From Caldifarciminota bacterium (lineage in GTDB: Bacteria; Hydrothermota; UBA3072): a DNA stretch of 54,761 nucleotides. Shown piece after piece: positions 5,099-47,244 of the stretch (within the stretch, counting starts at the first letter, position 1; each line of letters starts with the position of its first letter). The translations under genes were made by a program, and so were the position numbers. The notes beneath the pieces were generated by a model that saw only the letters and a list, made by a program, of their open reading frames with translations, had not been told where the DNA came from and did not search any database. The stretch covers positions 1-54,761 of the forward strand of contig JAGLZA010000140.1 in the NCBI GenBank assembly GCA_023131835.1, written 5' to 3'.

Positions 5099-5360
5099 AC
5101 CAGACCCTTACAAATGTAGGCACGATTTTAACCGTGCATTTAGCACGAATAAATTCGTACCTACAGTACTATCTGGATCCAGTTGTAGGAGCGGTTTGGA
5201 TAATCGCGATAATCGCGACAGGGATGTCGCTTCTACAAAGGGGCAGGAGACCTGACCCCTACACACAAAATCCTAATTAACCCGTATCACTATATGCTTG
5301 AGTTTTTGCGAACCCGAGAAATTTGGCACATGACTTTAAAAAAAATCGGATTAAAATGGA
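5099..5360. repeat. Intergenic palindromic repeats
   Basis: No gene is seen. The stretch contains several members of the palindromic repeat family: a GCACGA/TCGTGC type near 5140-5160, a GCGACA-GGGA-TGTCGC hairpin near 5214-5229 followed by TTCTACAAA, and a GGGGCAGG-AGA-CCTGACCCC type near 5240-5262. Each is flanked on one or both sides by TGTAGG or CCTACA. Confidence 0.6.
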
Positions 5361-5363
5361 ATT

Positions 5364-5468
5364 ATGATTAAAAGATACCTGTTTGATGACGTTAAGGAGC
5401 ATCTTTCTAAGAAAGAAATTAGTTTTATTGTTGGTCCAAGACAGGCGGGCAAGACTACTTTAATGTGA
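5364..5468 (+). pseudogene. Remnant of an AAA ATPase (DUF4143-type), N-terminus only
   Basis: An open stretch of 34 codons begins at ATG 5364 and reads MIKRYLFDDVKEHL, then FIVGPRQAGKTTLM before TGA. The GPRQAGKTTL Walker A and the preceding pattern are typical of the N-terminus of ATP-binding proteins of the AAA_14/DUF4143 family, which are usually near 400 residues. Nothing of the rest is visible downstream, so this looks like a deleted gene whose first hundred bases survive between repeats. It could have been moved here together with the repeat DNA. Confidence 0.6.
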
Positions 5469-5566
5469 TATAGGGACGGGGCATTAATTTGTGACATTAG
5501 TAATTGAGTTGAAAGAAAACTATTTAACCATTTTACCAATTAACCATTCAACTTTTTTTCACTACC

Positions 5567-5594
5567 TTGACAGGGTAGGTTCTCCGGTTATAGT
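5567..5594 (+). promoter_or_regulatory. Predicted sigma70-type promoter
   Basis: TTGACA (5567-5572) and TATAGT (5589-5594) are separated by 16 bases. Transcription from here would begin near 5600, just before the small ORF at 5614 and the barrel gene at 5708. Confidence 0.6.
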
Positions 5595-5613
5595 AACAAC
5601 CAGGGAAGGTAAT

Positions 5614-5697
5614 ATGAAAAGGGGAAATACCTACGAAGCATTTGGAATGAGGTTGCGTAAAAAAGAGATGGAATCATTTATATTTTATCATCCTTAA
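5614..5697 (+). CDS. Small ORF of unknown function (27 aa)
   Basis: A 27-codon ORF starts at ATG 5614, seven bases after GGGAAGG. It lies directly downstream of a good promoter and ends one base before the AAGGAGG that serves the next gene. The product is basic and hydrophilic (MKRGNTYEAFGMRLRKK and a short aromatic tail). I recognise no family. It might be a leader peptide for the barrel gene or the remains of a longer gene, since the same frame is open upstream to 5491 without a good start. Confidence 0.3.
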   Translation: MKRGNTYEAFGMRLRKKEMESFIFYHP

Positions 5698-5707
5698 GGA
5701 GGATTAG

Positions 5708-7797
5708 ATGTTTTTATATTCTACAATATTATTGACTTCTTTAGTGGTAATTTCAGAGAATTTTGTTTTTTTCCTGCTGATTCAATACAGGATATCCTTT
5801 TGCTAAATACTAAATATACGGAGGTGTTTGGTAACTATTATCAATATGGAATACCTTTGTATAACTTAGATATAACCTACGAAGGGTTTGAAATCGATAA
5901 TAGGTATGCACCCGGAAGGATATTTCAGATACCCCTGCTCTCAATAAAATCCTTTTCGGGAAATAGAGAATTAACATTCAGGAATATGGACAATAAAGGA
6001 CTTATGCTGAATTATAAGACTTCAGATTACCATATTGAGAAATTCAACAGAGTTTTGGATAAAAACCAGCCTGATTTATACAACTGGAATAGAGAAGCAC
6101 TAAATAATGTATCCTTTCTTTGCGGAATACCATTTCATAAGAATGGAGACATCATATTTTCCGGAGAAATTTTCAAAACTAATGGATTCCATCCTTACAC
6201 TGACGAAAACAAATTGAATCTCTTTGGTTTAGTCGGGTTACCCCTTGGGCCTCTGGATATGAAAGTAATTGGCATCTATAATTCATCGAAATACCACCAA
6301 TATATTGCCCAATGGAAGTATAACCTTTCAGGACTTCCTGATTATGAAGGAAAAAATATATTCTTTGGAATAGATTTGAGAAAAACCTTTGGCAATCTTG
6401 CACTTAACTTGCAGTACAATTTCCAGCAGGAATATGAACACCTGAATATCTTTGAGGATGGAAGTTATGACAGAAATGGTGATGGACAAATAGATTCACT
6501 TGACAGGAATGGTGTTGATGACTTTTCTGATTCGGATAATGATTTTGATGTAGAGATTGATACATTTCCAGAACGTGGCTTTGAATGGGATGACATTGTA
6601 TTATATCCCAATATAAGGAGTTATGACGTCTATGGTTTCTGCATCGATGGATACTGGCAAGCTCCCTGGGCAACTAAAAGAGTAAACATTCATAGGTTAA
6701 TAATGGGAAGTGAACTGCACACTAGTTTTAACAATCCAGGTATAAAACTGGGAATTGAAGAATACAATGTTCTGGATTATACTGTTAACACAGAAGATGT
6801 CCCATATTATGAGTATTACAAAGGGAAGCCAAAATTATTTAGTATCTTATTTTATAATATCTCTCATTCCGGGATATTTTCCTTTGGAATAAAGATAAAA
6901 AGAGAATTTTTCCTCACTGATTCAACATCCGAGAAATTTTCGGAGTTACTTGGGATTTCCCCTTCCATCGCTCCTTTTGAAAACGTCACTTTTTATGGAG
7001 ACTTTTCATATATCTCTGAGTTCCCCTGTATGAAATATATGTGGCCACTGGAGGGAAAATATCTTACACCGTATGGGATCCATCCTAATCCTGCACTTGG
7101 CTACTTAAGTAAAAAACAGTTCACCCTCGGAGTTGAATGGGAAGTTTTTGGGTTAGACTTAGGCATTGAGGGCATATATACCAGTGGGGAAGGTTTTCCA
7201 GCTACTTCTATAGAATGGATTACTATGCTTACTTATATTACAACATACATAGATTCAATTGATTATAACTATAAAGGTATACATTTATCTGCTGAGTTTT
7301 CAAAGAAATTTTCAATAATTAACCCTGAAATCGATCTCAATTATACATACGGTATATGTAAATATCCCGCTATTGTAAGTGATTGGGTAACAGGAGACAC
7401 TACCATTATTCGCCAAACACAAGGGAGCAAAAGGCATAATCTCAATCTTTTCCTATCAATGCTCTCTAATCAGGGTTATATACCCTCAATAAATGTGTTA
7501 TTTAAATATCAATCAGGAATACCTCATTATTATCGTGGTAGGGATGGAAAATACAAGAGTGTATTCTCAGCTGACAATATATATTTAGACCTTACCCTGA
7601 GAGAGTCATTCAACATCCTTACTAAAGATGTTGAATTTTACTTTGAGGTTAGAAATCTAATAAACAGGAATAATGCGCTTTATTTTGCTGATATATATGA
7701 GTATCTCAATTTTGATGACCCAGACGGAAAATATAACGATCCCACTGTGTATAACCCCCATAGGGTTATAAGAACAGGGATAATGTTGAGGTTGTAA
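5708..7797 (+). pseudogene. TonB-receptor-like outer-membrane barrel, frameshifted in a T7 run
   Basis: A strong ribosome site (AAGGAGG) precedes ATG 5708, which encodes the leader-like MFLYSTILLTSLVVIS. This frame stops at 5804, while the long downstream frame has only a TTG at 5800. Adding one T to the T7 run at 5766-5772 joins the two frames, giving ...SENFVFFPADSIQDILLLN... and a protein of about 696 residues. The body is rich in alternating aromatic strands and ends RVIRTGIMLRL, as outer-membrane barrels do. It carries a calcium-loop-like stretch (RNGDGQIDSLDRNG) near residues 225-240 of the downstream part. It resembles the barrel part of TonB-dependent receptors; I see no clear plug domain. 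The frameshift may be a real mutation, transcript slippage or a sequencing error. Confidence 0.6.
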
Positions 7798-8785
7798 AAT
7801 CTATCATTTTCCATTGATTTAGTTTTCCACCTCCTCCCTATCCAGGCAAGGCATGCCTTGCCTCTACAATGGGCGACTCGGCGAGTCGCCCCTACAATCG
7901 CACGAATAAATTCGTGCCCCATTAAATAGTAAACATTTTACAGGGCAAGCCTACAATTCGTTTACCCCGTTAGATAAAGAAATTATCTGACGGGGCGGGC
8001 TTGTAGAGGCAATTCATGAATTGCCACTACTCCAGAGAGCTTTGCTTTCTTTGCGAGAAAATCTTTGTATAGAGATTGCTTCACTGGGGTCGGGCAGGAA
8101 GAAAAGCCTGCCCCGTGGAATAGGAGAGATTACCTGAAGTGCTTCTATTCCACGGGGTGAACAATGACATGGTTCGCAATGACATCCAAAAGGACAAGGT
8201 ATACCTTGTCCCTACAAAAATCGCGACAGGGATATCGCTCCTACAAAAGGGTCAGGAGACCTGACCCCTACATACCCCAGCGGGTTTGATGAATCAAACC
8301 CCTACAATGGGCGAGGAAACCTCGCCCCTACAAAACTACAAAACAGAATTCTATTTGCGAGCTTTGCATCCTTCGCGTTCTTTGCGTGAACTTAAATGTA
8401 GAACCGTGCAGGAACCGTGGCTATAAACCAGAATTAGACACAGATAACACAGATAATAACTGATAAAGAAAAATAAAAAAAATCAGTCTTAATCAGTGAA
8501 AATCTGTGTCAAAAAAATGGGGGGGAGGAGGGGTAACAAAAGAATTATTCTTAAACCGTGTCATTCCGTGGCTATAAATGGGAGGGGAAAGGGGAGTTAA
8601 AAAATCAGTGTTCTTTTAGGGGAAGTAGAGGGGGATTCTTTAAATCAGTTAAATCAGTGAAAATCCGTGTCAAAAAATGGGGGGAAAGGGGATTAAACAA
8701 CCTATCTTAAAACAGTGTCTTAAAACCGTAGTATAAGATGGGAAGGGTTGGGGATTAATTTTCACAAAATAACATAAAAAAAACC
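7798..8785. repeat. Long intergenic repeat mosaic
   Basis: This gap of nearly 1 kb holds no gene that I can support. It contains the densest set of palindromes in the window: AGGCAAGGCATGCCTTGCCT at 7844-7863, GGGCGACTC/GAGTCGCCC at 7871-7891, GCACGAAT/ATTCGTGC at 7900-7917, GGACAAGGTATACCTTGTCC at 8192-8211, GGGTCAGG/CCTGACCC at 8249-8267, GGGTTTGAT/ATCAAACCC at 8282-8301 and GGGCGAGG/CCTCGCCC at 8309-8327, mostly with CCTACAA between them. A 13-bp stem (CCCCGTGGAATAG, 8111-8123 with 8145-8157) overlaps a smaller hairpin at 8092-8113. After 8340 other word families appear: AATCAGTGAAAATCTGTGTC and close copies, ACCGTGCAGGAACCGTGGC, and G-rich runs. Confidence 0.7.
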
Positions 8786-13500: not shown

Positions 13501-14274
13501 ATGGTATTGTTAATTATTTTTTCGGTGTTTGAAGGATTGGGCTATTCAATTGACGCTGCAGGGATGGGTGGAAATACTGTGTCTATCAGGGATTGCGCAT
13601 TACAGTCCAATCAGGCCTCTCTATCATACAAAAAAGATATATCTTTTTCCTACTCTTTTAATAAAGAATTCTCGATTTGTGAGATACATCGCGCAAACCT
13701 CTCATGGAACAGCATAGGTATGGGTATAATCTCCAGACAGACCCCTGACCCTGGTTCAGGTCCTGACCTCTCTGGTGAGATGGAAGTGCGTATTGCCCAT
13801 GGAATATCTCTATCAGACCAATTCAGACTCGGATATTCAATAAATGGATACTACCTCCGGATGAAGGATTACGGTAACGACATGGCAGGTGGATTCGATC
13901 TCTCGTTTCTGGGAGAGGTATACAAGAACTGGGTTGTTGGTGTAAATGCACATAACCTGAACCGTCCAAGGATGGGTAGGGAAAATTCATATACCCTTCC
14001 CTGGTCACTCTCGGTTGGGGTGAGTTATAACCCATATCCCGGAGTAATAACACATTTTGCCTTTACAAGAGAAGAGGATTATCCTCTCCAGGTCCACTTC
14101 GGACAACGCTTCCAGATATCAGACCAGTTCATTCTACAGGCAGGGGTCCAGAACGAACCGCTGCGCCTCTCCTTTGGTGTGGTTGTCCATACCGAATGGG
14201 TCTCATTCCATTACTCCGTAAGGAATCATTCCCGCATGCCACTCTCTCATTGGGTGGGGGTGAGTTATAAATGA
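13501..14274 (+). CDS. PorV/PorQ-like outer-membrane barrel protein
   Basis: GGGAGG precedes ATG 13501. The mature start has SIDAAGMGGNTVSIRDCALQ, which matches the region GARxxGMGGAxVAxxDD at the beginning of PorV/PorQ/UPF0164 proteins, and the remainder is a repeating pattern of amphipathic strands ending HWVGVSYK. PorV-type proteins act in T9SS as shuttles or anchors for secreted cargo. This one sits beside proteins with sorting domains, so it may serve them. At 257 residues it is shorter than typical PorV (about 380) and nearer to PorQ. The leader MVLLIIFSVFEGLG lacks any positive charge. Confidence 0.6.
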   Translation: MVLLIIFSVFEGLGYSIDAAGMGGNTVSIRDCALQSNQASLSYKKDISFSYSFNKEFSICEIHRANLSWNSIGMGIISRQTPDPGSGPDLSGEMEVRIAHGISLSDQFRLGYSINGYYLRMKDYGNDMAGGFDLSFLGEVYKNWVVGVNAHNLNRPRMGRENSYTLPWSLSVGVSYNPYPGVITHFAFTREEDYPLQVHFGQRFQISDQFILQAGVQNEPLRLSFGVVVHTEWVSFHYSVRNHSRMPLSHWVGVSYK

Positions 14275-25766: not shown

Positions 25767-26578
25767 GCAGCGAACATCTGTATTGTAGGCACGAATGAAT
25801 TCGTGTCTGTAATCTGTTTCGTTCAACCATTGCAGGTAGAGACGAGGCATTGCCTCGTCTCTACAATTAATCTTAACAAGAGACCAACCGGCTAATACAT
25901 TCTACCGCTAAACAGCTGAAGCTGTGGCAAAACCTTTTCCCCGTAGGAGCGACATCCCTGTCGCGACTTTTGTAGGGACAAGGTATACCTTGTCCTCTGT
26001 AGAATCTGTAGGGGTTCGATTTATCGAGTCCGAAATTGGAGTAGAGGCAATCCATGAATTGCCTCTACAAGTTTCGCGAAAAAGAACGCAGAGCAAGCTC
26101 TGCCACTACGAAAGGGGTGGATTGCGATTTTAGAAACCACTCCTACAAAAGGGCGTATGCAATACGCCCCTACTATTCAACTATTTTCCCATTCAACTAT
26201 TTAACTATTCTTCCTTTGCGCCCTTTGCGAGAAAAACGGGAGGGGTGTAGGGCTTTTCTTCTTGAATTACAAATTTAAGGGGTGGTGATGGGTTTTTTAG
26301 TTTATCTGTGTTTATCTGCGACATAATCAGCGAACAGCTATCAGCTAAGATGTATTTTCGTGTACTTTGTCTTCTTTGTGTTTCCTTTCTTGTGGGTTGG
26401 TGGAGGGAAAAATAAAAACAAAAATCTTCTTTGTGTCCTTCGTGTCTTTGTGGTGAAATAAAGGGGTATGATGATGGGCTCTCTTTCTTGAATTACAAAA
26501 TTTAAGGGGTGGTGATGGGCTTTGTGCCTTTGTGGTAAAATAGGGGATTGATTTTTACACAAGATAAACTCGAGGTGG
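25767..26578. repeat. Intergenic repeat mosaic
   Basis: No gene is supported. Palindromes include a 29-base hairpin at 25836-25864 with two perfect 14-base arms (GTAGAGACGAGGCA and its complement around one T), GGACAAGGTATACCTTGTCC at about 25977-25996, an AGGCAATCCATGAATTGCCT type at about 26045-26064 and GGGCGTAT/ATACGCCC at about 26152-26169, most with CCTACA or CTCTACA at one side. From 26210 the CTTTGTGTCCTTCGTGTCTTTGTGG family and the AATTACAAATTTAAGGGGTG family are repeated two or three times. Confidence 0.7.
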
Positions 26579-26613: not shown

Positions 26614-26698
<85 letters not shown>

Positions 26699-37358: not shown

Positions 37359-37974
37359 ACCACAAAGGCACAGAGGACACAAAGCCCACCACCATTTCCC
37401 TAAAATGTTGTAATCCAAGAGAAAAGAGAACACACAACCCTTCCACCTTTTTATTAACATATCCACAGGTCGCTTCGCTCCAATTGAAGATTGTTCACCA
37501 CAAAGACACAAAGGACACAAAGAAAAATAATGTTTTTGTTATCACCTCTCCACCCAGCCATTTATTCGACACAGATTGACACAGATAATCATTGATGGCA
37601 AATCTGCATGTAGGGGCAGGTCTTGCACCTGCCCTTTCGTATGGAAAAGGCATGCCTTTTCCATCTGTAGGGGCGAGGTTACCTCGCCCAAAATGTAGGG
37701 ACAAGATATATCTTGCCCTCTTTCCCAGGGAGGGTCGAGTTGGTCCCTAAATCCAAAATCCTATCTTCGACTCTTGACTCACGACTCTCGACTCTATATC
37801 AAACCGTGCAGGGACCGTGGCAAAAAATGGGTGGATGGAGGAGGATTAAAACACCTATCATAAAACCGTGGCATAAGATGGGAAGGGTTGTGTGCTCTTC
37901 TTTCTCTCAAATTATAAATTTAACGGGGTGATGATGGGCTCTGTGTCCTCTGTGGCTAAAAAAAGGGGATAGAC
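37359..37974. repeat. Intergenic repeat mosaic
   Basis: There is no gene. The stretch opens with ACCACAAAGGCACAGAGGACACA and holds a run of palindromes: GGGCAGGT/ACCTGCCC at 37614-37634, the perfect GGAAAAGGCATGCCTTTTCC at 37643-37662, GGGCGAGGT/ACCTCGCCC at 37671-37689 and GACAAGATATATCTTG-type near 37700-37716, each joined by CTGTAGGGG or TGTAGGG. Next come a CGACTCTTGACTCACGACTC tandem, ACCGTGCAGGGACCGTGGC, and AAATTATAAATTTAACGGGG with TGTGTCCTCTGTGGC. All these words recur elsewhere in the window. Confidence 0.7.
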
Positions 37975-39186: not shown

Positions 39187-39463
39187 GGGCGTGGATGAAT
39201 AAGATGCACTTGACATTCCGACCCCTTGACTCTTCTATTTGCCACAGAGACACAGAGGGCACAGAGAAAATAATGTGTTGGTCAGTTAGTCTGTTAGTGA
39301 GTTGGCGGGTAGGGGGCAAGATATATCTTGCCCTCCGTAGGAGCAACTCCCCAGTCTTGATTTTGGAGTAGGGGTAATTCATGAATTACCCCTACTTTTT
39401 TCGTTCAATGATTGTAGGGAAAAGGCAGGCCTTTTCCTCACTTGATCCCTTGTTTATAACATT
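39187..39463. repeat. Intergenic repeats with a 30-base perfect palindrome
   Basis: There is no gene. After CACAGAGACACAGAGGGCACAGAG come GGCAAGATATATCTTGCC near 39313-39330, a GTAGGAGCAACTCC word, a perfect palindrome at 39367-39396 (15-base arms, centre TCATGA, ends AGTAGGGG and CCCCTACT) and GGAAAAGGC/GCCTTTTCC near 39419-39438. The downstream gene starts without an obvious ribosome site; TATAAC at 39455-39460 is just before it, without a matching -35 box. Confidence 0.7.
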
Positions 39464-46783: not shown

Positions 46784-47244
46784 GTATTTTCAGTCAACAG
46801 GCTATAGTTTATTGTCCAAGGTTCAAAGTCCAGAGCCGAGAGTCGTGAGTCAAGAACCCCACACCAGAGATTGCTTCGTCGCTTCACTCCTCGCAATGAC
46901 AATTTATTTGCGTTGATTGCGTTAGATATCGCGGCTGGGAAGCCGCTCCTACAAAGAATCAGGGAACCTTACCCTACAAATTCCCAGGAGGGCAAGACAT
47001 GTCTTGCCCCTACATTTTCGGTGTTGATGAATTAAAACCCTACAATTGCACGAATAAATTCGTGCCTACAATCTCCAGACAATTGTAGGAACGACTTCTT
47101 AAGTTGCGATTATCGCGGCTTGGAAACCGCTCCTACAAAAGGGCGAACGCAGTTCGTCCCTACTATTTAACTATTTTCCCATTCAACCACTTAACTATTC
47201 TTCCTTTGTGTACTTTGTGTGGTTGTGGTGAAAAAGCTGTTCTC
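46784..47244. repeat. Intergenic repeat mosaic
   Basis: There is no gene. A CCGAGAGTCGTGAGTCAAGA word is followed by GATTGCTTCGTCGCTTCACTCC, a GCGGC-TGGGAA-GCCGC hairpin with CTCCTACAAA near 46931-46956, the perfect palindrome GGGCAAGACATGTCTTGCCC at 46990-47009 with CCTACA after it, GCACGAATAAATTCGTGC near 47047-47064 and GGGCGAAC/GTTCGTCC near 47141-47160. CTTTGTGTACTTTGTGTGG closes the block. Confidence 0.68.

Follow-up and report, generated by a model that had tools for sequence, protein, structure and literature searches.

The GTAG-tagged palindromes of the window

An earlier note on 54,761 nucleotides of Caldifarciminota bacterium DNA (the window) described palindromes that share outer words but differ in their cores, with second arms that match the first, and judged this swapping of cores worth study. 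We consider, with a probability of about 0.85, that they are non-autonomous GTAG-tagged REPs of several coexisting subclass-2.4 RAYT/REP lineages, and that their words have also been replaced in place. This reading builds on a tag and arm pairing above chance, copies throughout the genome, RAYT genes, words that match inside and outside those genes, and changes between orthologues.

The palindromes are present both at 7844–8327 and at the other named sites, and the six quoted cores (GGCAAGGC, GCACGAAT, GGACAAGG, GGGTCAGG, GGGTTTGAT and GGGCGAGG) all lie within or adjoin that interval. Read in one orientation, each element consists of GTAG followed directly by a perfect hairpin of 8–10 bp with a loop of 0–5 nt, and some are symmetrical, GTAG...CTAC (double-foot), so the outer words that the palindromes have in common are best understood as a GTAG tag flanking a perfect hairpin on one side or both. 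With a GTAG tag, a stem of at least 8 bp and a loop of at most 6 nt as criteria, 21 such hairpins were found in the window, including an AT-rich one inside a gene at 13631 that we excluded from the elements; in 100 dinucleotide shuffles they averaged 0.07 and never exceeded 2. Every one of the 18 intact elements is intergenic; intergenic DNA makes up 9% of the window. Elements in 'nearly every long gap' proved roughly right: five of the seven intergenic gaps of at least 250 bp hold intact elements, and a sixth (5099–5799) holds degenerate ones.

That sixth gap contains a degenerate head-to-head two-word pair, GTAG-GCACGaTTTTAACcGTGC ... GCACGAATAAATTCGTaC-CTAC (5116–5163, unstranded), with near-intact copies in the sister genome G001, and a degenerate minus-strand REP of the GGGTCAGG word whose stem has one unpaired base (5241–5262). 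In the REP-rich gap that includes 7844–8327, the single-foot REPs are all on the minus strand. GTAG + AGGCAAGGC (7844–7867; 10 bp stem, loop absent; quoted core GGCAAGGC at 7844–7863) stands head-to-tail with GTAG + GGGCGACTC (7871–7895; core 7871–7891). These are followed by an unstranded GCACGAAT hairpin without the tag, a truncated copy (7900–7917), and an unstranded double-foot REP, GTAGAGGCAATTCATGAATTGCCACTAC (8003–8030), whose inner word is that of the RAYT gene C212a described below. Then come GTAG + GGACAAGG (8192–8215; core 8192–8211), GTAG + GGGTCAGG (8249–8271; core 8249–8267), GTAG + GGGTTTGAT (8282–8305; core 8282–8301) and GTAG + GGGCGAGG (8309–8331; core 8309–8327); the GGGTCAGG word recurs inside RAYT C296, and the GGGCGAGG word both inside and upstream of it. 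The same REP-rich gap also contains a 16-bp inverted repeat without a GTAG tag (8111–8157; CCCCGTGGAATAGGAG/CTTCTATTCCACGGGG, 94% complementary).

The sites quoted from further along the window (25836, 37614, 39367 and 46990) were likewise borne out. The first is a double-foot REP of the AGACGAGGC word (25836–25864, unstranded), followed by a plus-strand REP of the GGACAAGG word (25972–25995), an unstranded double-foot REP of the AGGCAAT(T/C)C word with one position unpaired (26041–26068), and a minus-strand REP of the GGGCGTAT word, akin to that of RAYT C212b (26151–26173). Plus-strand REPs of the GGGCAGGT and GGGCGAGG words lie at 37610–37634 and 37667–37689. Further along come a plus-strand GGGCAAGA REP (39309–39333), whose word is the commonest in the sampled genome and differs by one compensated pair from the word inside RAYT C45; an unstranded double-foot REP of the GGGTAATTC word with perfect arms of 15 bp (39367–39396); and a plus-strand GGAAAAGG REP (39414–39437) that equals the in-gene word of a RAYT in G001. 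Last, minus-strand REPs of the GGGCAAGAC and GCACGAAT words occupy 46990–47013 and 47048–47069, the latter being like REPs that flank a 166-aa RAYT in the relative G036 (L131).

Tag and arm pairing across the genome

The host genome, a MAG fragmented into 537 contigs, appears WOR-3/Stahlbacteria-like from a single 31-residue match (97%) to a Ca. Stahlbacteria record. In a 759-kb sample, about one fifth of it, a hairpin directly follows 4.0% of GTAGs as compared with 0.036% for the median tetramer, densities that are upper estimates because contigs were picked partly for holding such words; TAGG and AGGG are likewise enriched, as register shifts of the GTAG signal. The expectation that copies exist elsewhere was borne out by 299 genome-wide occurrences of TGTAGGGGC, against 18 for the reversed control word.

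For covariation, sites were selected on the tag and an outer GGG ... CCC at fixed distance only, since selecting perfect stems would be circular. Inner pairs were complementary in 91–100% of cases at length 19 (n = 45) and 93–96% at length 20 (n = 106), where chance gives about 25%, which supports the claim that arm changes are compensated. All five inner pairs were complementary at 126 of the 151 sites, covering 17 inner words; as copies of one word share descent, it is this count of words, not of copies, that constitutes the evidence for compensation. The compensated variants lie one to several pairs apart (for example GGGTTTGAT, GGGCTTGAT, GGGTTCGAT and GGGCGTGAT). With the right arm disregarded in selection, GTAGGG sites were bimodal: 196 of 469 had at least 7 of 8 pairs complementary, 45 of these 196 with one unpaired base, whereas the control tags GATGGG and GGGATG gave 0 of 465 and 0 of 491. 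One feature counts against RAYT/REP action: CT, the dinucleotide at which cleavage has been described in the literature, follows the hairpins on the 3′ side in 53 of 131 cases, little more than the 32% found at random.

Close single-foot neighbours are arranged head-to-tail in 22 cases, head-to-head in 9 and tail-to-tail in 2. Neighbours within 60 bp nearly always differ in word, and one of 51 pairs repeats a word where 3.1 would be expected, numbers too small to assert avoidance. Head-to-head pairs recur at near-constant spacing, GGGCGAGG/GGGTCAGG and GGGCGTGAT/GGGTTCGAT in three copies each, and are two-word REPINs. They resemble the REPINs of Bertels and Rainey (2011, PMC3116915) in being two inverted REPs close together that recur as a unit, but here the arms are different words; heterodimers have been reported too (PMC3733652).

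Host RAYT genes carry the words

The earlier note had proposed looking for a RAYT-like transposase, and four near-complete genes plus a fragment (contig C88) were found. A PF01797 search had returned five genes of 302–321 aa without REPs beside them and led to an 'orphan REP' reading, which was wrong because the relevant clade had been missed. Those five Y1_Tnp proteins, on the host contigs C494, C256, C244, C516 and C62 (L009–L013), have long extensions at the C-terminus, lack neighbouring REPs and resemble published REP-free RAYT subclasses. The second clade was found only with a protein query from the relative G027. Its near-complete members are C212b (C212:5998–6636, plus strand), C212a (C212:14137–14652, minus strand; N-terminus not intact in the assembly), C296 (C296:2308–2916, plus strand) and C45 (C45:6185–6835, minus strand).

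In alignment, the host RAYTs share MPNHxH and QRxYYxxII motifs, and they show the HuH and single Tyr motifs, WQ, YIxNNP and a length of about 194 aa. NCBIfam REP_Tyr_transpos matches them weakly, below the model cut-off, and the sole structure match of a RAYT profile was the solved TnpA_REP 4ER8 (E = 8.6e-6). By these features they appear to fit TnpA_REP subclass 2.4 (group 4).

All four near-complete genes contain in-frame GTAG palindromes between the HuH and Tyr motifs, and in three of the four the gene's own word also adjoins it. The C212a word occurs upstream, inside and downstream of the gene. The C212b word occurs upstream and inside, and the downstream palindrome, GTTCAATTGAAC, supplies the gene's last codons and stop. 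C296 holds four in-gene palindromes, which are the two REPINs GGGCGAGG/GGGTCAGG and GGGCGTGAT/GGGTTCGAT, and two of its words also lie upstream; no matching word was found within 400 bp of C45. Within RAYT genes the palindrome is read in two frames, as VGxx...PL and as SRG...APT, suggesting that the in-gene position has probably been filled more than once. At L230:6622–6649 and L235:3616–3643, in both genera, a double-foot REP forms the last codons (VGAFN) and stop of a RAYT gene.

Words and RAYTs across the phylum

In-gene REPs were present at 25 loci of the phylum, 16 of which also have a flanking REP. The inside word equalled the outside word at 10 of these 16 loci, where shuffling led one to expect 1.07 and no more than 6 were reached in any of 5000 shuffles, and RAYT proteins with a common word were more alike (65% versus 45% identity). 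RAYT presence and REP enrichment are associated, imperfectly: a subclass-2.4 RAYT was present in 9 of 20 REP-enriched genomes and in 13 of 127 others (Fisher P = 4e-4). The 11 enriched genomes without a detected subclass-2.4 RAYT, and the 13 genomes that have one and are not enriched for the word, count against the RAYT/REP reading.

The abundant words of the host genome are those of its own RAYTs or lie one pair away; against the link, the abundant GGACAAGG, GGGCGACT and GGGCAAGA exactly match no RAYT word of the host. Among 18 sampled elements of G001, 10 have the word of its C87 RAYT and, again counting against the link, none has the words of its C116 and C154 RAYTs. The word census by genome thus backs the link only partly, and the elements of G010 were too few.

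Other RAYT types occur in the phylum. 'PPHYF' RAYTs (L152 type) were weighed as possible partners and rejected, because a GTAGGGGC hairpin lay near only one of those examined. L126, L131, L137, L146, L151, L164 and L169 are classical REPtrons, in which other words (GTAGC-GTTGGGG, GTAG-CGTCGGG, GTAGC-CGCAGGC and GTAG-GCACGATT) flank short RAYTs in relatives; a GCACGA-type REPtron word resembles the window elements at 5116 and 47048. A more distant RAYT of PDHLH type (L271:1420–2055, genome G144) has two-word REPs, GGACAACC/GGACAGGG, both within the gene and beside it; REPs inside RAYT genes may therefore extend beyond one subclass. L248:1–3228 (G010:C136) is a 1076-aa ORF that includes an in-frame RAYT-like HuH domain and otherwise looks like a restriction/methylation enzyme.

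Words change at fixed sites

G001, of another genus in the same family, is syntenic with the host genome at 66–87% DNA identity, and two syntenic pairs of RAYT orthologues, C212b/C116 and C45/C154, hold differing words at the same codons. C45 has GGGACAAGATATATCTTGTCCC where its orthologue has GGGAAAAGGCATGCCTTTTCCC, with three pairs differing and all compensated; the cores of C212b and its orthologue, ATTGCAAT and TCAATTGA, are fully compensated as well. The palindrome downstream of C212b and its orthologue is identical, in a context of 94% identity, and a decayed copy upstream of the sister orthologue still reads GTTCAATTGAAC. The upstream (5′) and in-gene palindromes of C212b both carry the GTATT word, such that two of the three copies at this locus differ from the sister by the same new word, and we infer from this that the change took place on the C212b side. 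Comparison with G001 yielded no pair of empty and filled sites, which counts against the RAYT/REP reading; contigs end at most REP-bearing gaps there, and the sole comparable gap holds different REPs. Contig ends of G001 (L280, L281 and L283) fall at gaps that have REPs in the window; REP clusters may therefore break metagenome assemblies.

The protein encoded by C212b looks like a mosaic, with a middle that matches genes carrying its new word. Its middle resembles the GTATT-word RAYTs of G145 and G008 and its C-terminus the sister orthologue: with palindrome-coded residues excluded, 27 sites of the middle match only the GTATT-word L255 and 10 only the GTTCA-word orthologue, as compared with 1 and 32 in the C-terminus (Fisher P = 5e-10). 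Because the palindrome adjoins the stretch of the gene encoding the helix that likely binds REPs, RAYT recombination could swap word and specificity together, the in-gene REP serving as a linkage device that matches enzyme to substrate. We put this forward tentatively and think it doubtful. Over 24 loci, the helix after the insertion had no advantage over the remainder of the protein in predicting the word (partial r = 0.05, P = 0.28), which leaves the idea resting on one gene, C212b.

Many words could also result if ready-made RAYT/REP pairs had arrived horizontally time after time and none had changed in place. The patchy distribution across the phylum is in keeping with such arrival, as are the presence of GGGCGTATT in RAYT genes of the distant genomes G000 and G145 (with a variant in G008) and of GGGCAATTC in those of G000, G001, G022 and G047. 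Yet the different words at the same codons of C212b/C116 and C45/C154 show that words change in place too, so arrival probably explains much of the word diversity, and as the whole explanation it is unlikely. Compensation might instead be mutational: through template switching, one arm would guide repair of the other, and a transposase would exert no selection. The small share of sites with one unpaired base, and orthologous in-gene palindromes that are several pairs apart with none broken, are in keeping with templated repair; it accounts for neither the GTAG tag nor the high copy number nor the match of inside and outside words, and we regard it as improbable on its own, though it could act in addition.

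Least probable of all is an RNA function (in transcription ends or mRNA stability) that preserves the hairpins, the arms covarying because the RNA must fold: published REPs can work in RNA (PMC3733652) and the 18 intact elements are intergenic, many downstream of a gene, but single-foot elements are 5 plus and 9 minus where all window genes are on the plus strand, minus elements give CTACAA rather than a U-run after the hairpin on the gene strand, and the words match transposase genes and lie within their coding sequence. Neither the fixed gene orientation nor the U-run of intrinsic terminators is seen, and Rfam matched nothing at the element sites, its only match in the window being a tRNA at 26614–26698.

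A RAYT/REP model and its relation to known systems

In the RAYT/REP reading that we favour, the single-stranded REP would fold into a hairpin preceded by a GTAG guide; a subclass-2.4 RAYT (TnpA_REP) would bind hairpin and GTAG, cut nearby and move or copy the REP. The host has at least four such genes, each marked inside, and mostly also beside, by its own word or words. The many cores would reflect several RAYT/REP lineages together with two-word head-to-head REPINs, and the evolution of RAYT genes also brings replacement of words at fixed sites, in at least one case along with the middle part of the encoded protein. Surviving changes would be compensated because the stem next to GTAG is the proposed substrate. 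Enzymes of E. coli and of group 3 have been shown to act on REPs in vitro, and in a group 3 system stem mismatches weaken cleavage or prevent it (PMC8266576), a loss that would favour compensated variants; by analogy with this work on other RAYTs, we infer that RAYTs mobilise the host REPs and demand a paired stem. What had been called core swapping would then mostly be coexisting RAYT/REP pairs, each with a word of its own, and two-word REPINs, for which known REP biology accounts, and not free mutation within a single family, while compensated replacement at an orthologous site does occur. A palindrome family thereby becomes a readable system of several transposases with their own written words, many dispersed copies and sister-genus orthologues with a changed word, and the specificity of RAYTs for perfect-stem REPs becomes directly testable, each RAYT against each word.

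GTAG palindromes are indeed known elsewhere, as the earlier note said, but are not confined to a few groups such as cyanobacteria (PMC2817692, PMC3733652, PMC6006769). Our elements share with the GTAG-tagged REP superfamily (Di Nocera et al. 2013, PMC3733652) the terminal GTAG, 8–10 bp stem and short loop, complementary stem variants, several families per genome, and intergenic singles, pairs and clusters; they differ in that close neighbours are mostly head-to-tail, an order rare in that survey, and the host group is absent from its list of phyla with GTAG repeats. The gammaproteobacterial RAYT/REP pairs (Nunvar et al. 2010, PMC2817692) have a similar REP-rayt-REP layout and palindrome-preserving change beside orthologous rayt genes, but their REPs flank the gene, whereas host REPs also lie inside, and the RAYT group differs. 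TnpA_REP subclass 2.4, or RAYT group 4, in the parts of Quentin et al. (2018, PMC6006769) consulted, is alike in its length of about 190 aa, NH(I/F/V)H, WQ and YIxNNP motifs, long variable HuH–Tyr stretch with in-frame REP insertions, long REPs with a G–C foot and double-foot REPs; those parts contain neither an inside/outside word count nor a mosaic RAYT with a new word. GTAG REPs, RAYT–REP coevolution and complementary stem variants were thus already published between 2010 and 2018 (PMC2817692, PMC3733652 and the parts consulted of PMC6006769), as were in-gene (in-frame) REPs (in the same parts of PMC6006769). Within the literature searched, four things are new: the host group, the number of words linked to several RAYTs within a single genome, the statistic on inside and outside words, and the RAYT that is a mosaic.
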